Shown here one piece after another: positions 27,631-40,206 of a stretch of 40,644 bases of DNA. The DNA comes from Natrialba taiwanensis DSM 12281 (lineage in GTDB: Archaea; Halobacteriota; Halobacteria; Halobacteriales; Natrialbaceae). The notes below the pieces were generated by a model that was not told the DNA's origin, ran no database searches, and saw nothing but the letters and a program-made list of their open reading frames with translations. The translations under genes were made by a program, and so were the position numbers. Position 1 is the first letter of the stretch. Each line of letters opens with the position of its first letter. The stretch lies in NCBI RefSeq assembly GCF_000337595.1, contig NZ_AOIL01000030.1:12212-52855 (forward strand), written 5' to 3'.

Positions 27631-28242
27631 ATGACTGTGCCTTCGGCAACAGGCCCCTCGAGACGCCGATTGCTCGGCGCGCTGGGAATCGGCGTTACCA
27701 CCAGCATCGCCGGCTGTCTCGGCGAATTCGGTGACGACGGGGCGGAGGGGGAAGACGATGACGAGCATCCGTTTGCAGACAGGGTGATCGACCATCCGGG
27801 CGGAGAGTCGATTCCGTTCACCGACGACCAGCACTGCGCCGTGTGTAACATGCGACCGACGGGCTACGCGCGGTGGCAGAGCCAACTCGCCCACGAGAAC
27901 GGCGAGGGGGCAGTCTTCGATACGCCGGGTTGCCTGTTTGCCTACTACGCCGCCCCGCCCGTCGAATCACCGGTCAGCGACGCCTGGACGACCAATTTCG
28001 GAACGACCGAGTTGATCGACGCCACCGACGCCCACTTCGTGCTCGTCACCGACGAGGACGACGTCGATAACGAGCCGATGGGACTCAACCCCCGCCCGTT
28101 CGCCGCCCGCGAAGACGCCGTCGCCTATCTCGACGAGTGGGACGCCGAAGCGCTAACCGAGGAGGACATCATCGAACTCGCCGCCGTCGACCGCGAAATC
28201 GCCCGCATCTATCGCGGCAGACGCGTCCCCGACGAGCCCTGA
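27631..28242 (+). CDS. NosL-like copper-binding lipoprotein
   Basis: A 203-aa exported lipoprotein. A twin-arginine region (SRRRLLGALG) leads to the lipobox SIAGC, with Cys29 as lipid anchor. After a very acidic spacer (30-48), the NosL core shows HCAVCNMRPTGYARW: Cys69, Cys72 and Met74 are the Cu(I)-binding residues of this family, and FDTPGCLFAYY is the second conserved block. NosL chaperones copper to nitrous oxide reductase in denitrifiers, but no nos genes are in the window. A Tat-exported cupredoxin encoded 1.1 kb downstream is an alternative client. The start ATG at 27631 immediately precedes the signal sequence. Confidence 0.82.
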   Translation: MTVPSATGPSRRRLLGALGIGVTTSIAGCLGEFGDDGAEGEDDDEHPFADRVIDHPGGESIPFTDDQHCAVCNMRPTGYARWQSQLAHENGEGAVFDTPGCLFAYYAAPPVESPVSDAWTTNFGTTELIDATDAHFVLVTDEDDVDNEPMGLNPRPFAAREDAVAYLDEWDAEALTEEDIIELAAVDREIARIYRGRRVPDEP

Positions 28243-28347
28243 CCGACCCACCATACCGCCTCCCGCCCACCGCTCTCACCCCCACCTCCCACCTCTCGCC
28301 GCACCGTATCCGGAACACGTTTGGATGTTCGAAACTGTCGACACGAC

Positions 28348-29256
28348 GTGCGCTCGTCCGAACTCGATGTGACGCCGTACGCCGCGCTCGCGTTCGCGAT
28401 TTTCGCCGCGAGCACCAGTGCAATCCTGGTTCGCTGGAGTACCGCCCCGAGTTCAGTTGCGGCTCTCTATCGGGTGGTGTTCACGACGGCGCTGGTCGCG
28501 CCGGTCGCCCTCTCTCGGCACCGCGACGAGTTCAGTCGTCTCGCTCGGCGCGACATCGGATTCGCGGTCATTGCTGGAATTGCGCTTGCGGTGCATTTTG
28601 CAGCCTGGTTCGAGAGTTTGAATCACACGAGCGTGGCCGCGAGCGTGACGCTCGTCCAGACCCAACCGCTGTTCGTGGCGCTCGGCGCGGGGCTGGTCCT
28701 TGGCGAGCGCGTCTCCCGGGAGACAGTGGTCGGTCTCGCGATTGCGATCATCGGGGCAGCGGCGATGTCGTTCGGTGATGCTGGCGAGGCACCGCTCTCG
28801 GACGCGACGATGTACGGGAACGCGCTTGCGGTCCTCGGTGCGGTCACCGTCGCGGGCTACGTGCTCGCCGGGCGGTCGATCCGCCAGCGCGTCTCGCTGT
28901 TTCCCTATGTGACCGTCGTCTACACGGCCTGTGCGGTGACGCTGTTCGCGTTGGTCGGCGTGCAGGGCCACGACTTCGTCGCGTACCCGGCCCGCGAGTG
29001 GCTGCTCTTTCTCGGCATGGCGATCGGCCCCGGCGTGTTCGGACACACGGTGGTCAACTGGGTATTAGAATACATTGAATCGGTCGTCGTCAGCGTAGCC
29101 TGGCTCGGCGAACCCGTCGGCGCGACGGTGCTTGCGCTCGCCTTGCTGACCGAGGTCCCGGATCTGATCACGGTAGTCGGCGGCCTCGTCGTTCTCGCCG
29201 GCATCTACGTGACGACGATCGAGCGCGAGCGACGCCGCGAGCCGACGCCGGGATGA
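28348..29256 (+). CDS. EamA/DMT family transporter
   Basis: A 302-aa integral membrane protein with about ten helices arranged as two EamA repeats: repeat one from PYAALAFAIFAASTSAILVRW to about residue 135, repeat two from TMYGNALAVLGAVTVAGYVLAG to the end. The loop SLNHTSVAASVTLVQTQPLFVALGAGLVLGERVS is the typical end of the first repeat. Family members export metabolites such as amino acids or nucleotide sugars. The start codon is uncertain: TTG at 28321, GTG at 28348 and GTG at 28369 are all in frame; I chose 28348 since it keeps a short N-terminal arm before helix 1. It is 105 nt downstream of the NosL gene on the same strand. Confidence 0.8.
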   Translation: MRSSELDVTPYAALAFAIFAASTSAILVRWSTAPSSVAALYRVVFTTALVAPVALSRHRDEFSRLARRDIGFAVIAGIALAVHFAAWFESLNHTSVAASVTLVQTQPLFVALGAGLVLGERVSRETVVGLAIAIIGAAAMSFGDAGEAPLSDATMYGNALAVLGAVTVAGYVLAGRSIRQRVSLFPYVTVVYTACAVTLFALVGVQGHDFVAYPAREWLLFLGMAIGPGVFGHTVVNWVLEYIESVVVSVAWLGEPVGATVLALALLTEVPDLITVVGGLVVLAGIYVTTIERERRREPTPG

Positions 29257-29311: not shown

Positions 29312-30433
29312 CTACTCGACAACAACCTCGCCGATCGCATCGAGTTGTGACTGGTCGAGGTAGGCCCCCATCTCCTCCTGTGCGACGAACTCGACGGTCT
29401 GGGTCTCGCCGCTCTCGTCGAGGAAATCCGATCTGACGTGGGTATTCCACTCATTGGTTTCGCCGCCGGATGCGATCGCGAGGTTGTGCCCTGGAAGCGG
29501 TTCTGTCGACCTGTTCTCCGCCTCGGGCTGGTGGCGACCGATCGCGTTCTCCCACTCGATCGCGTAGGTCTCGCCCGCCTCGAACTCGAGCGTCGGGTTC
29601 GGTTCGTCGGCGATCTCGTCGGGACCGACACCGACCCACTGACCCTCCTCGAGTCGGAGCGCGTAGGTTTCGGTCGGGTCGCCGGGTTCGATCGCGGGCA
29701 GCGTTACGGTGACTTCCTGATCGTCGCCGTCGATCGCCACCGTGTCGGTCACCCGCTCGTGACCGTAGGTCCAGACCTCGAGTTCGTACTCGCCGTCTTC
29801 GAGCATGTCGAAGCGGGCGATCGACGGCGGACTCTCTTCTACTTCCTGTCCCGGCCGCGCGGCGACATCGGAGAAGGAGTGGTGATCGCCGACGAACACC
29901 TCCGCGCCGAGCGGTTCGCCGTTCTCATCCTCGACTCGCACCCGTAGCTCGTGGACCTCGGCCGCGTCGACCAGTTCGATCGGACCGCGCATCTGAACCG
30001 GGTGCGGCATGCAGTAGTACTCGGCCATCTCCTCGTCGGCGGTGATCGTAAACGAGAGCGATTCGCCCTGTTCGTTCAAGAAGTCCGTCGCGTCGATCAC
30101 CTCACCGTCCTCGTCAGCGACGGTGAAGTTATGGTTCGAGCCGTCGCCGTTCGTCCAGACGATTTCGTGTTCTTCGCCCTCGATTAGCCGTAGCGGCGGG
30201 TTCGATTTGCCGTCGAGTTCAGCCGGGGCGACACCGACCCAGCCGCCGACGATGCCGAGCAGTGAGAGCGTTCGCCCCTCGCCGTCGTTCTGTGTGGCCG
30301 GCAGTCGGAAGTCGATCTCGTCGCGATACGCGCCTGCGGTCCCGGCCGTCGCCGCGGTTCCGGCGATCGCCGCTGTTCCCCTCAGTACGCCACGACGGGA
30401 CACGTCGTCGCGTGAGCGTTGGTCGTTCGTCAT
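29312..30433 (-). CDS. Tat-exported two-cupredoxin protein (blue copper protein)
   Basis: A 373-aa secreted protein. The Tat signal is SRRGVLRG with an Ala/Gly/Thr-rich hydrophobic stretch to about residue 35. Domain one (about 55-155) is a plastocyanin-like cupredoxin with all type-1 copper ligands: His101 (SNHNFTV), Cys141, His144 and Met148 (YYCMPHPVQM). A carboxypeptidase-regulatory-like beta domain follows (about 160-250). Domain two (about 255-373) repeats the cupredoxin pattern (QWVGVGPDEI matches GWVGVAPAEL) and keeps His316, but its copper loop reads YLDQSQLDAIG, so the Cys, His and Met are lost. It is the last gene after the PQQ dehydrogenase, 53 nt downstream, and is a plausible electron acceptor. 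The longer open frame to 31066 is an antisense-like overlap with that gene. Confidence 0.85.
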   Translation of the reverse strand: MTNDQRSRDDVSRRGVLRGTAAIAGTAATAGTAGAYRDEIDFRLPATQNDGEGRTLSLLGIVGGWVGVAPAELDGKSNPPLRLIEGEEHEIVWTNGDGSNHNFTVADEDGEVIDATDFLNEQGESLSFTITADEEMAEYYCMPHPVQMRGPIELVDAAEVHELRVRVEDENGEPLGAEVFVGDHHSFSDVAARPGQEVEESPPSIARFDMLEDGEYELEVWTYGHERVTDTVAIDGDDQEVTVTLPAIEPGDPTETYALRLEEGQWVGVGPDEIADEPNPTLEFEAGETYAIEWENAIGRHQPEAENRSTEPLPGHNLAIASGGETNEWNTHVRSDFLDESGETQTVEFVAQEEMGAYLDQSQLDAIGEVVVE

Positions 30434-30451
30434 GGTTGGAGTCTGTTGAAT

Positions 30452-30487
30452 CGTATTCGTATTCGTACTCGTACTCGTAATCGTGAT
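30452..30487. repeat. Six-unit hexamer repeat between the dehydrogenase and cupredoxin genes
   Basis: Six imperfect tandem copies of CGTATT/CGTACT/CGTAAT/CGTGAT (plus strand) fill most of the 53-nt spacer upstream of the cupredoxin ATG. The spacer has no other visible ribosome-binding element, so copy number could affect translation of the cupredoxin. Confidence 0.7.
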
Positions 30488-32196
30488 CAGCCGTCCATCG
30501 AGAACACGGCGAGCGTGTCGCCGCGTGGCCCCTGGCGGAGCCAGCCGCTGCCGCCGACTTGCACGGCGACGTACTGTTTCTCCTCCCCGGGATCGTACCA
30601 GCTCATCGGCGACGCGCTGATCGGCACGTCGAACTCGTACTCCCAGAGCCGGTCGCCGCTCTCGCCGTCGTAGGCGACGAAAATACCGTTCTGAGTGCCG
30701 TTGAATACGAGTCCCGTCGCGGTCGATAACGAGCCGCCCCACATGTAGTGGTCGTCCTCGCTTTCGATCCAGTCGCGCCAGACGCGTTCGCCTGTCGCCG
30801 GATCGACCGCGGCGAAGGCGGTGATCGCACCGTTCCAGTCGTCGGGGAACTCCGATGCCGGATCGTCGAGGTTCCCGCCCCAGTAGGGGTGGCCGGCCTC
30901 GTACTCTTCGTACCGCCAGTAGAGGTCTTGCGGATAGTTCTGGTGGACAACGTACACCAGCCCCGTCTCCGGATTGTACGACGGGGGCTGCCAGTCGTTG
31001 CCGCCCGGCGCGCCGGGAACGAACGGAACCCGCTCGTCCTCGCTGATATGCGGGATCATCTCCCACATATTGATGTGCTGGCAGATTTCCTCGCTGCGCT
31101 CGTGGAGCCGGCCGGACTCGGCGTCCATCATGTACACCCAGCCGGTCTTGTCCGAACCGACGACCATCTCCGACGGTCCGTCATCGACGTCTACATCGCG
31201 AATCAGCACCCGCGGCGCGACCGCGTCGTAGTCCCAGACGTCGTGCGGGCTACTCTGGAACCCCCATTCCCACTCGCCGCTCTCGAGGTCCAGCGAGATG
31301 GTTCCGCAGGTGGGGAAGTTCGGTCCCGGCCGCACCGTGCCGTCGAAGTCCGGTCCGGGGTTCGCGACCGCCGTGTAGAGGACCTCGCGGTCCTCGTCGA
31401 TCGTCGGCGTCATCCAGGTCGTCCCGCAGCCGTGCTCGCGGCTCGCGCCGACCCACTCGTCCTCCGGGAGCGTCTCGGTCTGCCACTGGATCTCGCCGCT
31501 CTCCGCATCGAGCGCGGCCATGAATCCGAGCACGCCGTACTCGCCGCCGGCGCTGCCGGTGTAGATCGTGCCGCCGTGGATCACCGGTGCCCACGTCGCG
31601 GAGTACCCCTCTTCGTGGTCGGCCGTGCTCGTGTACCACTCCTCCTCGCCGGTGTACCGGTTCAGCGCGACGATCCCCGAGTCGAGCGTCGTCATGTACA
31701 CCGTGTCGCCGAGGACGGCCGCCCCGCGATTGTTGTCGTCACAGCAGAGTTCGACGCCGATCGGCGGCGCGTAGGTGTAACTCCAGAGGACCTCCCCCTC
31801 GCGGGGATCGATCGCCTTCATGTGGTTCGGTCCGTTGGTCTGGTACATGATCGGCGGATCGCCCGGGACGACGATCGGTGTCCCTTCCATGCTCGAACCG
31901 GTCCCGACCGACAGCTCGTACTCGAGTTCGAGATCGGAGACGTTGTCGGGCGTAATGACATCGGCGGTCGTCGCTCGGTGCTGTTCGTAGTTCCCGCCGT
32001 ACATGAGCCACGACTCGGGGTTCTCCCCGGTCCCGCTCAGCATCTCTTGGTCGACATCGACCTCCGGAATCCGGTCGGTGTCGTGTTGTTCGGTGACGGA
32101 GTCGTCGGGGCCACCGACGAGCGTGTAGCCGTCTTCGATCTCGGTCAGTTCGATGTCGCGTGCGGCCTGAACGGCCCTGTCGTTGCGAAGTGCCAT
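30487..32196 (-). CDS. PQQ-dependent alcohol dehydrogenase, lanthanide-type active site
   Basis: A 569-aa eight-bladed propeller quinoprotein. Family marks: the vicinal disulfide Cys151-Cys152 followed by DDNNRG, repeated blade motifs such as ALDAESGEIQWQT and AVDPATGERVWRDW, the metal-ligand Glu219 in GSAGGEYG, Asn279 in VANPGPDF, and the catalytic Asp322 in HDVWDYD. Asp324, two residues after it, is the extra metal-binding aspartate that distinguishes lanthanide-dependent XoxF/ExaF enzymes from calcium-dependent MxaF, which has alanine there. No haem c domain is present. Unusually there is no Sec or Tat signal: the protein starts MALRNDRAVQ and goes straight into a propeller domain. A Shine-Dalgarno-like GAGGTGA overlaps the stop codon of the upstream gene, 6 nt away. 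The natural alcohol and the source of PQQ are unknown. Confidence 0.86.
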   Translation of the reverse strand: MALRNDRAVQAARDIELTEIEDGYTLVGGPDDSVTEQHDTDRIPEVDVDQEMLSGTGENPESWLMYGGNYEQHRATTADVITPDNVSDLELEYELSVGTGSSMEGTPIVVPGDPPIMYQTNGPNHMKAIDPREGEVLWSYTYAPPIGVELCCDDNNRGAAVLGDTVYMTTLDSGIVALNRYTGEEEWYTSTADHEEGYSATWAPVIHGGTIYTGSAGGEYGVLGFMAALDAESGEIQWQTETLPEDEWVGASREHGCGTTWMTPTIDEDREVLYTAVANPGPDFDGTVRPGPNFPTCGTISLDLESGEWEWGFQSSPHDVWDYDAVAPRVLIRDVDVDDGPSEMVVGSDKTGWVYMMDAESGRLHERSEEICQHINMWEMIPHISEDERVPFVPGAPGGNDWQPPSYNPETGLVYVVHQNYPQDLYWRYEEYEAGHPYWGGNLDDPASEFPDDWNGAITAFAAVDPATGERVWRDWIESEDDHYMWGGSLSTATGLVFNGTQNGIFVAYDGESGDRLWEYEFDVPISASPMSWYDPGEEKQYVAVQVGGSGWLRQGPRGDTLAVFSMDG

Positions 32197-32202
32197 GCGT
32201 AC

Positions 32203-33105
32203 TCACCTCAGTTTGCTCGGCGCGCGTGTCTCGTCGGTAACGTAGAACACCTCGTGCAACAGCTCCTCCTGCCCGACGATCTGTACCGCCGTCCCCGCCG
32301 CGAACGCAGCGGTCACCTGTTCGTCCGTGAGCCGCCCCGTCGTGGCGATATCGCAAGCGGCCGTCGCCGACAGGAACAGGCCGCCCAGCATCGTCTTCGT
32401 GTGCGCGACGGCGGCGTCAAGGACCTCCTCGGTGACGAGCACCTCGTTTTGCCAGAGGTGCCTGTCGAGTCCGCGAATCCACAACAGCGCCCCACCCATC
32501 GCGCGCCGGTGGAGAGGGGGCACGGTTTCGGTATCGAACTCGACGCCGTCCGGAATCTGGTTCGACGGCACCCACCGGGCGAGCCGATCGGCGTCGTTCG
32601 CGACGGCGATCAGCAACGCCGTCTTCTCGGACTCGTCGAACCCGACGTCGTCGAGCGCCGCCGAAAGCGGCGTCGTCAGCACCAGTTCCCGCGCAGTGCG
32701 CTCGATGTGTGTGGGCGTAAACCGCGGCAGCGTCTCGTCGAGGCGCTCGAAGAACTCGCCCTCCGCCAGGTGCTCGTAAAGCCGCCAGCCGGGGTCGGCC
32801 ACCGCCTCGTAACAACCGTGGGGCTCGTTCGGAACGCCGGTCTCCCGAACCTCGGGAAGCCGCTCGATCCGGGCCGCAAGCCTGTCTCGCTCGCGTTCGA
32901 GTACCTCGCCGTCGAGTCGCTCCGCGAGTTCAGTTCGGATCGTCGCGCCGGCGGCCTCGAGCGTCGGCGATTGGTCCGGTTCGATCCGTCCCGCCAGGCC
33001 GCTCCACGTTACCGGTCGATCGGGTACCTCGGTCGCACCGAGTTGCGTCGCCAGTTTCGTTTGTTCCGCGCCTGATATCTCCCGCCTCGCATTTGCATGT
33101 GTCAT
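32203..33105 (-). CDS. Uncharacterised protein encoded upstream of the PQQ dehydrogenase
   Basis: A 300-aa soluble, acidic, probably mostly helical protein that I do not recognise. Visible features: a Glu/Arg-rich helix at about 65-95 (ELAERLDGEVLERERDRL), a PHGCYEAVADPGWRLYEHL segment with one of its two cysteines (about 105-125), an ALLIAVANDADRLARWVPSNQ segment near 175-195, and a C-terminal half rich in small residues (HTKTMLGGLFLSATAACDIATTG) followed by AGTAVQIVGQEELLHEVFYV. No signal peptide or membrane helix. I start at the ATG 33105; an ATG at 33135 adds ten residues. It is the first gene of the PQQ operon and is translationally coupled to the dehydrogenase. It might be an assembly, cofactor-insertion or export partner; nothing in the sequence proves any of these. 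Confidence 0.8.
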   Translation of the reverse strand: MTHANARREISGAEQTKLATQLGATEVPDRPVTWSGLAGRIEPDQSPTLEAAGATIRTELAERLDGEVLERERDRLAARIERLPEVRETGVPNEPHGCYEAVADPGWRLYEHLAEGEFFERLDETLPRFTPTHIERTARELVLTTPLSAALDDVGFDESEKTALLIAVANDADRLARWVPSNQIPDGVEFDTETVPPLHRRAMGGALLWIRGLDRHLWQNEVLVTEEVLDAAVAHTKTMLGGLFLSATAACDIATTGRLTDEQVTAAFAAGTAVQIVGQEELLHEVFYVTDETRAPSKLR

Positions 33106-33294
33106 GTTCTCACCACACATAGTTTGCTCCCACATGCCAACGAATAATCATTATCAAAGACTTCGAACAGGTGGCGTGCTATCTAAGTCACAGTCGGATA
33201 GGTTCGAAATAATGCCATCGTATCCCGACAGTATGTCGAACGTACTACAAGTATATTCCCCGTTCGGCACGAAGCGGTACCCGAGTGATCGGCA

Positions 33295-34662: not shown

Positions 34663-35010
34663 TCAGTCGACGTTCGTCCGCCAGTCCGGCTGCTGTCGCG
34701 GCGGTGCGAGGACGCCGAGTCCGATCGCCGGTTCGTCGTGTCGATTTTCAGCCCCGTGATACTCGTTGCTCGGAAACCGGTAGGCGTCACCTTCTTCGAG
34801 GACGACCTCGTCCCCCTCGACGATCGCTATCAGCGTTCCCGACAGTACGTAGCCGATCTGCTCGTTGTCGTGCTCGTGGGCGGGTAACGTTGCACCCGGT
34901 TCGATCCGCCAGTATTTCATGCTCGCCCGGTCGCCCATCGAGAGATCGCCGAGATAGACGCCATCCGCAACCTCCTCGGCGGTGACATCGGCCGTCTGTA
35001 TGTGGTCCAT
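34663..35010 (-). CDS. Cupin domain protein
   Basis: A 115-aa single-domain cupin. The first motif G-x5-HxH is visible as GATLPAHEHDNEQIGYVLSG (His45, His47 and Glu50/Gln51 as metal ligands), and the second as FPSNEYHGAEN with His85 as the last ligand. Small cupins of this kind bind a divalent metal and act as isomerases, dioxygenases or sugar-binding proteins; nothing identifies the substrate. It is divergent from the NMT1-fold operon, with only 142 nt between the two starts, so shared regulation is plausible. Confidence 0.83.
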   Translation of the reverse strand: MDHIQTADVTAEEVADGVYLGDLSMGDRASMKYWRIEPGATLPAHEHDNEQIGYVLSGTLIAIVEGDEVVLEEGDAYRFPSNEYHGAENRHDEPAIGLGVLAPPRQQPDWRTNVD

Positions 35011-35097: not shown

Positions 35098-35129
35098 GCA
35101 TATAAACGATCCCTAGAAACGTTTTATGC
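35098..35129 (+). promoter_or_regulatory. Promoter of the NMT1-fold operon with overlapping inverted repeat
   Basis: TTTTATG at 35122-35128 is a TATA box 25-31 nt before the ATG at 35153, so the mRNA should be leaderless. The right arm of an inverted repeat (CGTTTTATGC, 35120-35129) covers the box; the left arm GCATATAAACG is at 35098-35108 and matches it with a single extra T. A repressor binding both arms would block TBP. Confidence 0.5.
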
Positions 35130-35152
35130 CGCCCGTTGCCGTCACATATTGT

Positions 35153-36061
35153 ATGGCATCGAGTGACATGCAGAGTGCACTGCGCGTCTTTCACCTCCCG
35201 TTCTCGTTCATGCTGCCACAACGAGTCGCAGCCGAGCGCGGCTACTTCGAGGACGAGGGACTCGACATCGAACTGGTCGAACGAGACCGGCAACAGGTCG
35301 ACTGGAAGTACGTCCCGGCCGACTGGACGCTGACCGGCGACGACAACGTCGACCTCTACCCGGTCTGCAAGTGGGAGAGCCTCCGGCGCACCTGGTCGCT
35401 CGATGACGGCAAAATCGTCGCCCACGGAACGTTCGCAGACCTCCCGTATAGCCTCTACACGCGGCCGGAAACGCCGATCAACTCGCCCGCCGACCTCGCC
35501 GGCGTCCCCGTCGGCGTCAATCGTCGGACCGGCCAGGAGTACACCGCCATCAAAGCGCTCGAGGAGTACGTCGACCCCGACGAGATCGAACTCGAACACT
35601 TCGGCATGCCGACCGAGCGGCTGCAGGCGCTCCGTGACGGCGACACCGACGCCGTCACGCTCCTCGATCCCCACAGCACCCTCGCCGACCACCTCGGCTT
35701 CGAGCAGGTCCTCGCCTTCGAGAACCACATCGGTATCGTCGGCACCGACTCACTCGCCGGCGACGAACTCGACGCCTTCATGCGAGCCTACGGCCGCGCC
35801 GTCGAGGCGATCAACGACGACCCGCAAGCCTTCCGCGAGCAGTACCTCGCGATGCTCGAGTCGGACGCCGAGATCGCACCGGCTCTCTTCGACGGCGTTG
35901 ACCTCGAAACCGTTCGCGAATCGGTGACCGTTCCCCAGTACGAGGTCCCCGAACTCGCCGATCCCGACGAACTCGACGGCCACCTCGAGTGGATGAAAGA
36001 CCGAGAACTGATCGACGACCGAGCCGACATCAGGACGATCGTTTCCCCCTCGAGCCAATGA
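35153..36061 (+). CDS. NMT1/SsuA-fold (type 2 periplasmic-binding-like) protein 1
   Basis: A 302-aa protein with the fold of NMT1/THI5 and of nitrate/sulfonate-binding proteins. Features: the first strand-helix FMLPQRVAAERGYFEDEGLDIELVE, the hinge motif INSPADLAGVPVGVNRRTGQEY, and DGDTDAVTLLDPHSTLADH in the second lobe. No signal peptide or lipobox is present and the ATG at 35153 is leaderless, so the protein should remain in the cytoplasm. This fold also contains enzymes (4,5-dihydroxyphthalate decarboxylase, DszB desulfinase, THI5), so a catalytic role is possible. Its stop overlaps the next start (ATGA). An upstream ATG at 35126 lies within the TATA box and is rejected. Confidence 0.78.
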   Translation: MASSDMQSALRVFHLPFSFMLPQRVAAERGYFEDEGLDIELVERDRQQVDWKYVPADWTLTGDDNVDLYPVCKWESLRRTWSLDDGKIVAHGTFADLPYSLYTRPETPINSPADLAGVPVGVNRRTGQEYTAIKALEEYVDPDEIELEHFGMPTERLQALRDGDTDAVTLLDPHSTLADHLGFEQVLAFENHIGIVGTDSLAGDELDAFMRAYGRAVEAINDDPQAFREQYLAMLESDAEIAPALFDGVDLETVRESVTVPQYEVPELADPDELDGHLEWMKDRELIDDRADIRTIVSPSSQ

Positions 36062-37080
36062 CTAGCGACATCGAAACCCAACAAGCGGCACTGGACGAAC
36101 TCCACGATGCTCCCGCTCGGTCAGAGAGCGACGACGCGACCAGGCTTCCGGAACTGCGCGCCCGATTCGAACACAACGGCAGCCCCCGCTACATGCTGTA
36201 CACCATCAAGCGGTACGGCTTCGACCACGACCACGGCTTCCACCTCGACGTCGAACTCGTCTCGGACGAACTCGAGGACGGCCTCGAAACGGTCGAGGCC
36301 AAACTGCACCAGGGCGACGCGGATCTGATCGACATCGACTACATCTCGACGGCGCGCGAGCGGGCCGGCGGCGCACCCATCGTCGCCGTCCATCCCTACG
36401 GTCGAACCGTCGGCGGCCTCGTCGTCCCCGAGAACTCGCCGATCGACGGCCTGGCCGACCTCCCCGGCCACCGCATCGGCGTCGTCCGCCGCCTCGACAA
36501 GAACTGGATTCTCACGCGGGCCGCCTGCCGCGAGTTCCACGAGTTCGATCCCGAAACCGAAGCCACGTCGGTCGAGGCGGGCTCGAAAGTCGAACTCACC
36601 CGACTGCTGCGCGAGGGGGAGGTCGACGCCGCCCTCCAGTTCTGGCAGCTCATCCCCGAACTCGTCGAACCCGGCCCCTACCGCGAAGCGATCCCGATGG
36701 CTGAACTCGTCCAGCGGCTTTCGGGCGTCGAGCAAACGTTGCCCATCTCGACGTTCCTCACGAGCGAGGACTACCTGGCAAACCAACCCGAAGCAATCCG
36801 GGGGTTCAAGCGCGCATACGCCGATGCCGTCGAGCGCCTGCAAACCGACGACGAACTCTGGGAGGAGTTGGGCGAGAAACTCATGTACGAAAACGATCCC
36901 GCCGTCGTTCGCGGCGTTCGCGATCACTGGCGGGAGATGGTCGTCACCGAGTGGAACGCGGAGACGGTCGATGCGATGGAACAGTTGTTCGATCACCTGC
37001 TCGCAGTCGCCGGCCCGGAGGCACTCGGCGTCGATCACGTTCCGGACGACCTGTTCCGACTGGAGGTGCCGTCGCAATGA
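36058..37080 (+). CDS. NMT1/SsuA-fold protein 2
   Basis: A 340-aa protein with the same fold, but clearly diverged from its neighbours. Recognisable are GLETVEAKLHQGDADLIDIDYIST in lobe one, NSPIDGLADLPGHRIGVVRRLDKNW as the hinge region, and LLREGEVDAALQFWQLIPELVE, typical of the ligand-contact loop of solute-binding proteins. A ~30-residue polar N-terminal arm precedes the domain; there is no signal peptide. It overlaps the first gene by ATGA and the third gene likewise, so equimolar products that may form a complex are expected. The C-terminal ~80 residues (EWNAETVDAMEQLFDHLLAV) are a helical cap. Ligand or reaction unknown. Confidence 0.76.
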   Translation: MTSDIETQQAALDELHDAPARSESDDATRLPELRARFEHNGSPRYMLYTIKRYGFDHDHGFHLDVELVSDELEDGLETVEAKLHQGDADLIDIDYISTARERAGGAPIVAVHPYGRTVGGLVVPENSPIDGLADLPGHRIGVVRRLDKNWILTRAACREFHEFDPETEATSVEAGSKVELTRLLREGEVDAALQFWQLIPELVEPGPYREAIPMAELVQRLSGVEQTLPISTFLTSEDYLANQPEAIRGFKRAYADAVERLQTDDELWEELGEKLMYENDPAVVRGVRDHWREMVVTEWNAETVDAMEQLFDHLLAVAGPEALGVDHVPDDLFRLEVPSQ

Positions 37081-38078
37081 CGCCGGACACGACAACGACC
37101 GTCGACTTCCAACTCAACTGGGAGCCGAACGGCTTTCAGGCCCCCTACTTCCTCGCGCGCGATCGCGGCTTCTACGACGACGAGGGGCTGGACGTGCGGT
37201 TCGTCGAGGGCCACGGCTCGCCCTTCGCCGCCGAGCAAGCCGCCCGCGGTCGGGCCGAGTTCGCGCTGGCGGGCGCAAGCGCCGTCCTCTCGGTGCAGAG
37301 TCGCGGGCTTGACCCGCTCGCCGTCGCCGCCGTCACCGGCAAGACGCCCGCCGCGATCTACACCCTCCGGGACGAGTTCGGCGAGGCGCTGACCGAACCC
37401 GCGCAACTCGCGGGCCGGACTGTCGCGCCGTCGGCGACCAAAACGCGCATTTTGACGGCCCAGTTGCTCGCGGACGCCGGAATCGCAGAAGCGGTCGACC
37501 TCCTCGGCGTCGACGACCACACGCACCATCGCGTACAGCATAAGCTCCTCGACGGCCGGGTCGACGCCGCCGTCGGCGTCGTCACGAACGGCTACGAACT
37601 CGAGCGCGAACATGACCGCACGGCGGACGAACTCCCTATCGGGGACCACCTCGGCGTCTACGGGATGACCATCGTGACCGACCCCGAGTTCGCAAGCGCG
37701 AAACCGGAGACGGTCCGCTCCTTCCTCCGGGCGACGGCCCGTGGCTGGGCAGCCGCGACGACCGACCCAGGTGCGGCGATCGACGTGCTCGTCGAACGCA
37801 ACGCGACGCTCGAGCGGAATCGACCCGTCGAGCAGCGCAAGTTCGAGACGGCGGCGACCGACCTCCAGTTCACCGACCGGACGCGAGCGGAGGGGTGGGG
37901 CGTGCACGAGGGCGAGCGCTGGCGGACGCTCGGCCGGACGCTCGCCGAGACGGACCTGCTCGAGGGTGAGATCGATCCCGACGCGGTCTGGACGAACGAG
38001 TTCATCGACGCGGACGACGAGGTGATCGGGAACTACGCGGAGCGCGTCGCCGAGTCGGAAACGGAACCGCGGGCCTGA
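37077..38078 (+). CDS. NMT1/THI5-like protein 3
   Basis: A 333-aa protein closest in pattern to THI5/ThiY-type proteins: it begins VDFQLNWEPNGFQAPYFLARDRGFYDDEGLDV, then GSPFAAEQAARGRAEFALAGASAVL, the QLAGRTVAPSATKTRIL hinge, and LLDGRVDAAVGVVTNGYELE. No signal peptide or lipobox precedes the domain. THI5-type enzymes make thiamine pyrimidine from PLP and an active-site histidine; whether this protein has such residues (a HTHHRVQH cluster lies near residue 140) is open. In other genomes a permease and ATPase usually accompany ThiY-like binding proteins; here none does. It overlaps gene 2 by ATGA and is followed 8 nt later by a VOC protein. Confidence 0.8.
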   Translation: MTPDTTTTVDFQLNWEPNGFQAPYFLARDRGFYDDEGLDVRFVEGHGSPFAAEQAARGRAEFALAGASAVLSVQSRGLDPLAVAAVTGKTPAAIYTLRDEFGEALTEPAQLAGRTVAPSATKTRILTAQLLADAGIAEAVDLLGVDDHTHHRVQHKLLDGRVDAAVGVVTNGYELEREHDRTADELPIGDHLGVYGMTIVTDPEFASAKPETVRSFLRATARGWAAATTDPGAAIDVLVERNATLERNRPVEQRKFETAATDLQFTDRTRAEGWGVHEGERWRTLGRTLAETDLLEGEIDPDAVWTNEFIDADDEVIGNYAERVAESETEPRA

Positions 38079-38086
38079 CGATACCC

Positions 38087-38515
38087 ATGCACGCAGTCGA
38101 CCACATCAACATCGACGTCGACGACCTCACCGCCTGCTACGAGTTCTACCGCGATGAACTCGGGCTCAACGTCCGCCGCGAGCCGTCCGATTTCAAAGGC
38201 GAACACGCCATGTTCCAGATCGGCGACACCGTCGTCACGCTGGCCGAAACCGGCCGCGCCGACGGCTGGGACGAGCGCGGCCTCGATCACCCGCTCGACA
38301 AGGCCCACGTCGCCTTCGAGACTGATCGGCAGGAGTACGAGCGGCTGACGGCTGAACTCGGCGGCCAGTTTCCGAAGCAGGGGCCGTACGATTGGGACGA
38401 GTTCGAGGGGTTCTACTTCCTCGATCCGGACGGGAACCTGCTCGAGGTGATCACCTACGAGTCGCCGGCGGGCGAGCGCGAGCGACCGCTGCTGACGCAC
38501 GATGATGTCGAGTAA
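38087..38515 (+). CDS. VOC (glyoxalase/dioxygenase) superfamily protein
   Basis: A 142-aa single-domain member of the vicinal-oxygen-chelate fold. The N-terminal AVDHINIDVDDLTACYEFYRDELGLN (His5 as a likely metal ligand) and C-terminal GFYFLDPDGNLLEVITYES (Glu near 124) are the two beta-alpha-beta-beta-beta modules. His67 (DHPLDKAHVAFET) may also contribute. Members are glyoxalases, extradiol dioxygenases or resistance proteins; the metal-ligand set here is compatible with a metal enzyme, but the substrate is unknown. The gene ends the four-gene operon, 8 nt after the third NMT1-fold gene, which suggests a shared pathway acting on a small aromatic or heterocyclic ligand (inference). Confidence 0.84.
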   Translation: MHAVDHINIDVDDLTACYEFYRDELGLNVRREPSDFKGEHAMFQIGDTVVTLAETGRADGWDERGLDHPLDKAHVAFETDRQEYERLTAELGGQFPKQGPYDWDEFEGFYFLDPDGNLLEVITYESPAGERERPLLTHDDVE

Positions 38516-38562
38516 GGCGAACTCTCACGCATTATAATGTATAAAACACATAGTTGTTTATA

Positions 38563-38883
38563 TCATTTCGAAAGGTGTTGTTCAATATGACTTAATCCAT
38601 AGTAAACATTACCAACCACACATATAAATGCGAACAAAAATAGCAGAATTGTAATATTATCTGATAGTGTCAAATAGTCAATAACCTTAATTATGATCCA
38701 GAAGAGAGCCATACAAAGGACCATCATTGTAATCGAATCGGTCCTATTCTTCCAATAGCTGTAAATAACAATTGTGGCTAATCCTATGATTAAAAATTCC
38801 TGCGTACCAAAATTTGGGGCTGATATCTCCAGCATAGTATATGTACTATCAGGTATTATATTAAATCTATTGGGGGTAGACAT
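38563..38883 (-). CDS. Small hydrophobic membrane protein, possible halocin immunity/partner
   Basis: A 106-aa protein with three predicted membrane segments: FLIIGLATIVIYSYW (about 28-42), SITMMVLCMALFWIIIKVIDYL (about 49-70) and ITILLFLFAFICVVGNVYYGL (about 76-96). It ends in a short charged tail. It is not a recognised family. I start at the ATG 38883; the frame continues six bases to a TTG. It lies 102 nt downstream of the halocin-like gene on the same strand, a usual place for an immunity or export factor. Base composition is AT-rich like its neighbour. The role is inference. Confidence 0.65.
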   Translation of the reverse strand: MSTPNRFNIIPDSTYTMLEISAPNFGTQEFLIIGLATIVIYSYWKNRTDSITMMVLCMALFWIIIKVIDYLTLSDNITILLFLFAFICVVGNVYYGLSHIEQHLSK

Positions 38884-38985
38884 GAACAATCATTGTGATC
38901 TAAATCGGATCCCGTCAACACAAGATGGGTTCTATTTCCTCTTCATAAAAGTCAAAAGTCATCAACATCTTGTCATCATTAATAG

Positions 38986-39330
38986 TCAATAATCTGAGCA
39001 ATTCACTATCCAATCGTCTTTGTCAAAGAAACTATCATCAATACACTCAGTTATATGTACACCATCACTCCAATCATCCCTGCACCCCAAGAAGGTACTC
39101 AACGTCGCACCGCTACCTATAGCACAAGTAAGGCACGCAATTGGATTTAAAGTTATGTAACATGAGCCACAAGAAATAACAGTAGTAACCAAACCGCCGA
39201 TTACCTGCGCAAAACAACTCCAATCTATCCCCGGAACTAACTCAATATCAACTTCGCATCCTTCACTACCACTGCCGCCGCCAGGGGCAGGAAGATATTC
39301 ATTACTGCCTATTTCATCGCTTGATTCCAA
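38986..39330 (-). CDS. Halocin C8-like bacteriocin domain (C-terminal part of a split precursor)
   Basis: A 114-codon frame starting only with a TTG. It has a Gly/Ser/Pro-rich linker (LPAPGGGSGSEG) and then a compact cysteine-rich hydrophobic domain: nine cysteines, in segments such as DWSCFAQVIGG, SCGSCYITLNPIACLTCAIG and STFLGCRDDW. Cysteine spacing and hydrophobic core match the mature peptide of halocin C8-type microhalocins, which are released from the C-terminus of a Tat-exported ~283-aa precursor. The frame is open upstream as far as 39411, where it overlaps the end of the Tat-signal ORF at 39369-39851. No good start codon lies in the overlap, so this domain is probably not translated alone. 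A single inserted base would join the two frames. Confidence 0.7.
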   Translation of the reverse strand: MESSDEIGSNEYLPAPGGGSGSEGCEVDIELVPGIDWSCFAQVIGGLVTTVISCGSCYITLNPIACLTCAIGSGATLSTFLGCRDDWSDGVHITECIDDSFFDKDDWIVNCSDY

Positions 39331-39368
39331 TTCAAGCTGCCTTTCGACAACATCACCTTCTATAGGTA

Positions 39369-39851
39369 TTAGAGCTTTACCTCTATTTTTCTTAGCAAGG
39401 CTGTATTTGATTTAGAACTAAGACTATCTTGCTTCCATACGTGCTGTGCGAAGGTATGTTGTTCTAAACCAAGATCGGTATTTGCATTGCCGAACCACCA
39501 GAATACCATCTCCTCCTCGTCCAATTCTCCATCACCTTTCTTTGAGGCGTTAGCTATCACATAGTCATAAACGTAATCTTCCGCTCTATCCACCGCTCGA
39601 CGAACTACCACATCATCCCAGTCTATCTTCCACCCCTTTTCTCGTATTTTCTCACGCACAAATCTTGAATCTCTATCTGTGTTTATTTGTTCTATTACCT
39701 CATTTCTTTTACTACGTTCTAATTTTGTGACTGAAATACGGTCAATATTTTCACCATATGGATTAGATTGCTCGTTAGCCGTCACAGAGCTAGTCACACC
39801 AACTCCTGATGCGCCAATACCAATCGCCTGTAGAACCTTTCTACGGTTCAT
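39369..39851 (-). CDS. Tat-signal N-terminal part of a split halocin C8-type precursor
   Basis: A 160-aa frame beginning with a twin-arginine signal (MNRRKVLQAIGIGASGVGV, cleavage probably after VTA near residue 25). The rest is charged: KLERSKRNEVIEQINTD and VRREVIEQ-like helices continue to YVYDYVIANASKKGDGELDEEEMVFWWFG. In halocin C8 this N-terminal section (HalI) is the immunity part of the precursor. The ORF stops at 39369, while the cysteine-rich domain follows in the -1 frame. The switch falls within the run CTAAGAAAAATAG (read on the coding strand), where adding one A would yield LLRKNRGKALIP and a continuous protein of about 288 aa. As it stands the ORF encodes a secreted protein without a bacteriocin domain. 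Confidence 0.68.
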   Translation of the reverse strand: MNRRKVLQAIGIGASGVGVTSSVTANEQSNPYGENIDRISVTKLERSKRNEVIEQINTDRDSRFVREKIREKGWKIDWDDVVVRRAVDRAEDYVYDYVIANASKKGDGELDEEEMVFWWFGNANTDLGLEQHTFAQHVWKQDSLSSKSNTALLRKIEVKL

Positions 39852-39972
39852 AATTCCAACTATTACTAGTGAATATTAAAACTTTTGTTTACTATTCATA
39901 TATAATATAATTAATCACTCGTCTGTAATTTTATATATTCCAATTTCTTATTTGATTGATACCGGATTGAAT

Positions 39973-40206
39973 GTGAACGAATTAATCGCTCTAACGTCTG
40001 GAGTTAGCACGTCTGCCACACATATGGAAGCAATTGGTTCGCATCTTCAGCGTCTGAAACTACTTTTGATGGGATTCAGGAGTTTTGATCGAATCGACTA
40101 CCGATATCTAAAGGAGAGAAAGGACAGTTAGGTAGTCAAAGCCGTTAACGAGAAAAACGAGTTTAGAGAGACCGTGTCTGAAATGATTTACATGCTGATC
40201 ACATAA
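39973..40206 (+). pseudogene. Small ORF interrupted by an in-frame TAG
   Basis: A GTG-initiated frame (39973) reads NELIALTSGVSTSATHMEAI and continues to IDYRYLKERKDS, stops at TAG (40129-40131), then continues in the same frame as VVKAVNEKNEFRETVSEMIYMLIT to TAA at 40204-40206. The two halves have the same charged, helical character, as expected if a GAG codon mutated to TAG. TATA-like TTTTATATA at 39929-39937 precedes it. It is divergent from the halocin-like gene and abuts the transposase end. I do not recognise a family. A regulator of the neighbouring genes is conceivable only as a guess. Confidence 0.33.

Follow-up and report, generated by a model that had tools for sequence, protein, structure and literature searches.

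The stretch of DNA analysed here (the window) comprises 40,644 nucleotides of contig NZ_AOIL01000030.1 of Natrialba taiwanensis DSM 12281. Its minus strand holds a trio of closely spaced genes, which encode, in this order, an orphan protein that we call G3, a quinoprotein alcohol dehydrogenase of the pyrroloquinoline quinone (PQQ) type and a blue copper protein with a leader for twin-arginine translocation (Tat). The stop of G3 and the start of the dehydrogenase are 6 bases apart. The three genes are as follows:

32203..33135, minus strand: G3, orphan all-helical partner, 310 amino acids; alternative internal start at 33105; N-terminal Tat-signal region decayed
30487..32196, minus strand: quinoprotein (PQQ-type) alcohol dehydrogenase, 569 amino acids; residues E219, N279, D322, D324, C151-C152, W261 and K350; no signal peptide by eye
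29312..30433, minus strand: cupredoxin protein with Tat leader, 373 amino acids, start at 30433; Copper-bind domain by Pfam, leader and other domains by eye

The original prediction for this locus was a PQQ alcohol dehydrogenase with a lanthanide-type metal site, paired with a blue copper protein. The residues it named, Glu219, Asn279, Asp322 and Asp324 (the last two within a WDYD segment), are present in the open reading frame (ORF), which also has the vicinal pair Cys151-Cys152 and a GTTW motif with Trp261. Using phmmer, the WDYD region was aligned to Asn256, Asp299 and Asp301 of the XoxF enzyme of SolV (PDB 4mae) and to Asn281, Asp323 and Asp325 of PedH (6zcv). The Pfam family PQQ (PF01011) was matched with 166.2 bits, above its gathering cut-off of 26.7. 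The four best sequence matches in the PDB were PedH (twice), SolV and XoxF, and the five best Foldseek rows were PedH (twice), SolV (twice) and XoxF. Compared with PedH, the structural model of the dehydrogenase gave a Z of 40.1 and 2.4 Å over 496 residues, at an identity of about 29%. Sequence and predicted fold support the identity as a PQQ-type alcohol dehydrogenase, which would bind PQQ and presumably use an alcohol as substrate.

Comparing 56 distinct haloarchaeal homologues, Asp322, Asp324, Trp261 and Lys350 were found in all of them, Asn279 in 55, Glu219 in 47 and the Cys-Cys pair in 39. The nine rows deviating at Glu219 or Asn279 all lie inside the most divergent branch, which has ten rows. 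In the closer set of 45 distinct homologues (about 40% identity or more), Glu219, Asn279, Asp322 and Asp324 were present without exception. A quick tree without bootstrap, calculated from the 56 haloarchaeal and 12 bacterial rows, split the haloarchaeal rows from all bacterial ones including XoxF5, with a value of 100 in the Shimodaira-Hasegawa-like approximate likelihood ratio test (SH-aLRT). In this tree, with its few bacterial rows, the dehydrogenase does not branch with XoxF sequences.

From the conserved site, lanthanide use by the haloarchaeal enzyme is plausible, and we consider lanthanides the probable native metal. The proposed lanthanide-type site was borne out insofar as Asp324 is present and kept throughout the group; the motif, however, is not exclusive to proven lanthanide enzymes. 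Two residues after the catalytic Asp (position +2), 10 of the 12 bacterial relatives have Asp and 2 have Ser or Thr (Paracoccus WDFS, Novosphingobium WDYT). The row of a membrane glucose dehydrogenase (L108) reads WDFD and has the +2 Asp as well, and an Asp-x-Asp motif is described for the characterised membrane enzyme in the available text of PMC11996626. The same machinery might accordingly work with calcium or magnesium as cellular metal, the second Asp being an ancient trait that membrane glucose dehydrogenase has, too. Asp-x-Asp combined with Lys occurs in L108 and also in the bacterial rows L095, L100, L101 and L102, for which the metal is not known, and the invariant Lys350 of the haloarchaeal group is replaced by Arg in XoxF5 and in PedF-linked bacterial rows. 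Quinohaemoprotein dehydrogenases are calcium enzymes, and one of them (1kv9, Z 39.4) ties in fold with PedH. Against calcium or magnesium stand the best four PDB sequences and best five Foldseek rows, all of them lanthanide enzymes, and the retention of the +2 Asp in 56 of 56 homologues; we regard this alternative as possible, but clearly the less probable one. The fold was discarded as a test of metal type, as other quinoprotein dehydrogenases tie with PedH. The spacing of 43 residues between Asn279 and Asp322, taken originally as XoxF-type, does equal that of SolV, but it is 42 in PedH, which uses lanthanides as well. Therefore, the spacing does not discriminate and was dropped as a lanthanide marker.

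The dehydrogenase is closely tied to G3. Among 391 genomes of Halobacteria, one identical set of 70 was obtained with the G3 profile at E values of at most 1e-3 and with the dehydrogenase profile at E values of at most 1e-40. The profiles for this comparison were built from linked loci and only the best candidates were scored, although each search could have picked up one gene without the other. Where loci were read completely, G3 was found directly upstream of 56 out of 59 dehydrogenase ORFs (two of the 59 repeat others); the ORFs without it are L049, a fragment in L051 and the second of the L109 copies. The genome of N. taiwanensis contains a second G3-dehydrogenase pair on contig C42, so that both copies are paired. 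A plasmid search yielded G3 in 8 records, all haloarchaeal, and a search of the phylum in 7 of 392 genomes, all from the window's own order. For the window protein no Pfam or NCBIfam match was obtained, any given Pfam family had at most 2 matches among 27 G3 members at E up to 1, no sequence relative was found in the PDB (best E 1.7), and Foldseek returned no match for the model at E up to 0.001. This model, built from 27 sequences, is all helical, with a predicted local distance difference test score (pLDDT) of 84 and a predicted template modelling score (pTM) of 0.84. The best VIA-align result covered 113 residues at 3.1 Å and had a Z of 7.5, a range that this tool calls common. G3 can be regarded as a well-delimited orphan family, whose genes turned up only where the dehydrogenase was present as well.

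The second pair (C42:228000-244000, locus L076) is located among ebo-like genes, namely those for a UbiA prenyltransferase, a TatD hydrolase, a phosphodiesterase, a TIM-barrel epimerase and an inositol-phosphate-synthase-like protein. An ebo cluster is described in the available text of PMC6282210. Due to this location EboA was considered as an identity for G3, and no EboA match was obtained; in the L076 neighbourhood no match to EboA or EboD was seen.

The third gene of the trio encodes, as predicted, a Tat-leader cupredoxin with a full set of type-1 copper ligands (His101, Cys141, His144, Met148), which were conserved in all 21 distinct cupredoxin ORFs recovered. Pfam Copper-bind was matched with 35.2 bits (cut-off 21.2), and the NCBIfam halocyanin domain TIGR03102 with 24.9 bits, below its cut-off of 93.8. 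The protein consists of the N-terminal type-1 copper cupredoxin, a middle domain and a second cupredoxin-like domain, the latter two assigned by eye; the second cupredoxin-like domain is without the Cys ligand loop and reads YLDQSQLDAIG. In the window's clade the cupredoxin follows directly after the dehydrogenase in 13 of 13 rows. Also in agreement with the original prediction, no cytochrome c gene was seen: CxxCH occurs in none of the window genes found by a simple gene caller. The cupredoxin may act in place of cytochrome cL.

Furthermore, natural fusions were observed. In three species of one genus (L117, L119, L121) a cupredoxin forms the N-terminus of a dehydrogenase ORF of 697-700 amino acids. 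The fused cupredoxins carry C-x2-H-x3-M and reach 25.6, 25.5 and 19.4 bits with Copper-bind, the first two above and the third below the cut-off. Their dehydrogenase parts have Asp at the position of the window's Glu219, and a Tat-bearing G3 lies upstream of them. A single origin would explain all three. In N. taiwanensis itself, an ORF beside the second G3-dehydrogenase pair joins a Copper-bind domain to a GSDH-type domain (soluble PQQ glucose dehydrogenase; L076 4329-6668). In view of the dehydrogenase and GSDH-type copper fusions, blue copper as the electron outlet of the quinoprotein is well supported, with electrons presumably flowing from enzyme to copper.

The copper pairing held for the neighbouring gene and the natural fusions, but not for a sister clade of 21 rows. 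There, no cupredoxin-profile match was found within 6 kb (L051 ends soon past the gene), and 18 of the 21 rows have a [2Fe-2S] ferredoxin gene within this distance (not L049, L052 and L063). Many sister-clade loci contain a gene for a CDC48-type ATPase, some one for aldehyde:ferredoxin oxidoreductase (AOR), and L109 has xanthine-dehydrogenase-type genes.

None of the dehydrogenase N-termini inspected by eye has a signal peptide. The N-termini of deep-branch G3 proteins such as DRREFLKALGVGGAVAAGG are Tat signals by eye. Pfam TAT_signal gave 13.3-19.3 bits for 9 of 10 deep G3 proteins and no score for the tenth, not reaching its cut-off of 22.7; the L076 G3 came to 16.6 in NCBIfam TIGR01409 (cut-off 16.7). 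Tat signals on G3 were called with our own rule of motif and hydrophobicity. G3 is present in 54 of the 56 tree rows; 17 of these proteins have an RRxFLK-like motif with a hydrophobic core and 37 do not, among them the L081 G3, whose borderline core (1.24) was counted as no signal. On the tree the signal requires a minimum of 2 changes. It is present in 10 of 10 rows of the deepest branch and is therefore read as ancestral on G3. At the aligned position the window's G3 reads AEQTKLATQLGATEVPDRP, the region being kept and the hydrophobic core gone, and the leader of the cupredoxin is the sole Tat leader left in the unit in the window's clade. The second Tat-less group (L064, L079, L081, L082, L113) likewise has a protein with Tat leader, whose start is no more than 12 bases away from the end of the dehydrogenase. 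As judged from these signals, the simplest reading is a hitchhiker export of the dehydrogenase through Tat, which would have used G3 first and the copper protein later; the window's enzyme is probably exported on the cupredoxin leader. Alternatively, the window's enzyme would stay in the cytoplasm and reduce a soluble carrier, and the adjoining exported cupredoxin would not be its direct partner. Such a location would agree with the absence of a signal from both dehydrogenase and G3 in the window's clade and with the ferredoxin genes of the sister clade, but it leaves aside the constant place of the cupredoxin behind the dehydrogenase in this clade and the related enzymes that include a fused cupredoxin and are preceded by a G3 with Tat signal. 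We consider it doubtful.

Our favoured reading, to which we assign a probability of roughly 55%, is an Asp-x-Asp haloarchaeal quinoprotein that is folded with G3, escorted by Tat and feeds blue copper. The enzyme would fold in the cytoplasm aided by its helical partner and probably take up PQQ and metal there, with G3 assisting. The folded complex would then cross the membrane by Tat as a hitchhiker, with the Tat signal on G3 as ancestral carrier and, in the window's clade, probably that of the cupredoxin from the next gene. Outside the cell an alcohol would be converted to the aldehyde, and PQQH2 would give its electrons singly to the blue copper site, from where they would enter the respiratory chain. 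If this is true, rare-earth-type quinoprotein metabolism reaches halophilic archaea, and copper replaces cytochrome c within a covalent fusion. Bacterial quinoproteins are mostly exported by Sec and loaded outside; here, a quinoprotein would be assembled before export.

Several results weigh against this reading. The NCBIfam family TIGR03075 (methanol/ethanol family) was matched with 358.4 bits, below its cut-off of 480.05, so the dehydrogenase represents a divergent branch. The mean pLDDT of its model is 76.8 and several active-site loops, including residues 317-323, are below 50; hence, the geometry of Asp324 at the metal is not confirmed by the model. L049 and the second L109 copy have no G3 of their own. 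With the hydrophobic core of the window's G3 lost, export of the window's copy would depend on the cupredoxin leader, a hypothetical route. At two loci, L079 and L113, the protein with Tat leader that follows the dehydrogenase is without a copper domain (in L113 a cupredoxin-like gene is found further along). The sister clade has the same active site without a Tat-bearing G3 or a nearby cupredoxin, and some of its members may therefore be cytoplasmic. Finally, a search of 125 family genomes yielded no PqqC, which leaves the source of PQQ unexplained.

The original prediction had proposed to look for pqq genes elsewhere in the genome. In the search for PqqC none of 14 control genomes was positive, and pSymB of S. 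meliloti, run as a further control, gave 428.9 bits. For PqqE, 0 of 61 genomes were above the cut-off, with radical-SAM relatives below it only; the 14 control genomes also gave none, so this search had no positive control. With these two results the quinoprotein might be "empty", its propeller being free of PQQ and serving another role. The NCBIfam family of that kind (TIGR04528, acido-empty-quinoprotein) was matched with 275 bits, far under its cut-off of 650. The residues of the metal and PQQ sites, however, are conserved across deep divergence, and many bacteria without PQQ synthesis scavenge PQQ according to the available text of PMC12124388, which makes an empty propeller very unlikely in our view. 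Haloarchaeal "PQQ synthesis" genes are named by annotation in published tables (PMC1906763, PMC11218638, as far as their text is available). The absence of PqqC, the partner G3 and the signal-less dehydrogenase were not part of the original prediction. For a PQQ-loaded enzyme, the sharp question raised is the origin of PQQ in genomes with the dehydrogenase.

Next to the trio, the window contains further genes of a linked block, among them three for NMT1-like proteins (SBP1 to SBP3):

34663..35010, minus strand: cupin gene, recurrent in the linked block
35126..36061, plus strand: SBP1, NMT1/SsuA-like, no signal peptide by eye
36058-37080, plus strand: SBP2, NMT1-like, no signal peptide by eye
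37077-38078, plus strand: SBP3, NMT1-like, no signal peptide by eye
38087..38515, plus strand: gene of VOC/glyoxalase fold, member of the same block as the SBP genes

Among the genes called in the region of the SBP trio and the VOC gene (35126-38515), no permease or ATPase was found. A total of 44 of the 125 family genomes contain SBP1, and 43 of these belong to the 53 genomes that have the dehydrogenase (p 1e-22 in Fisher's test, uncorrected for kinship). For 28 of these 43 genomes, SBP1 does not lie within 20 kb of a dehydrogenase, and it also occurs in genomes (G012, G044-G047, G061) in which all dehydrogenase matches belong to the second type or to close relatives of it. Possibly SBP1 renders a general service, for example the supply of a cofactor or metal; a catabolic pathway shared with the dehydrogenase is also possible. 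Extending the favoured reading, one could think of a separate rare-earth quinoprotein branch that evolved in haloarchaea, with cytoplasmic loading of PQQ and metal by G3 as a dedicated escort, folded Tat export and copper wiring through either a neighbouring gene or a fusion. One of its lineages would have lost the export signal and turned to ferredoxin in the cytoplasm, and the signal-less NMT1-like proteins would supply PQQ or metal. This wider picture is tentative, and we think it unlikely to hold as a whole.

Comparing known systems, PedH of Pseudomonas putida (6zcv/6zcw) is the best match in sequence and fold, the alignment including its Asn-Asp-Asp site and its vicinal Cys pair. The haloarchaeal enzyme differs by Lys350 opposite the Arg of PedH's DRNG stretch, by the missing signal peptide, and by its orphan partner and adjoining cupredoxin gene. 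The XoxF methanol dehydrogenases (4mae, 6dam) share the WDYD segment, but the haloarchaeal enzyme forms a separate branch and has no CxxCH protein among the window genes called. It would be PedH/XoxF-like in its working, yet is neither by branch, cut-off or neighbours. Sorbitol and gluconate dehydrogenases dependent on flavin adenine dinucleotide (FAD) have small subunits acting as Tat escorts, and here, too, a Tat-signal partner stands beside a signal-less catalytic subunit. In contrast to these escorts, G3 has no significant family match, and it accompanies a quinoprotein instead of a flavoprotein as catalytic subunit; one deep G3 (L120) showed a weak match to the FAD-dependent sorbitol dehydrogenase (FAD-SLDH) family, below the cut-off (E 0.09).

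PQQ dehydrogenases of heterotrophic marine thaumarchaea are likewise archaeal, and 4 of 21 variants keep Asp-Tyr-Asp; blue copper proteins are one electron acceptor proposed for them (PMC7300363, available text). In this respect thaumarchaea are the published precedent for archaeal Asp-Tyr-Asp PQQ dehydrogenases with a proposed blue-copper outlet. As described there, these enzymes differ in that they are without the Cys-Cys motif, have a PQQ synthase present and mostly carry signal peptides or membrane segments; the available text mentions no G3-like partner or copper fusion. In the literature searched, no title on a haloarchaeal lanthanide or PQQ alcohol dehydrogenase was among the matches listed (subscription papers were outside the scope), and neither G3 nor copper-dehydrogenase fusions were met among them. 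Within these searches three features seem to be new: the haloarchaeal branch, the orphan partner that constantly accompanies it, with a Tat signal that is probably ancestral, and the covalent fusions to copper domains.

Some other neighbouring genes were recorded. Past the cupredoxin, on the opposite strand, the window holds genes for a NosL-like protein and an EamA transporter (27631-29256), both of which recur in the same 8 loci, window counted; the NosL-like product could be a copper chaperone. AOR genes occur in 7 loci at up to 6 kb from the dehydrogenase (e.g., L096:3393-5054 and L123:10399-12324), and a xanthine-dehydrogenase-type gene at L109:1086-3425. Both families include aldehyde oxidisers, and such neighbours fit an alcohol-to-aldehyde enzyme. 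A formate-dehydrogenase-like molybdopterin gene, named by eye, was found within 6 kb in 8 loci (L039, L043, L044, L046, L056, L058, L083, L124). Within the window, positions 38001-40000 have a G+C content of 0.447, compared to about 0.59-0.68 across the remaining 2-kb steps.
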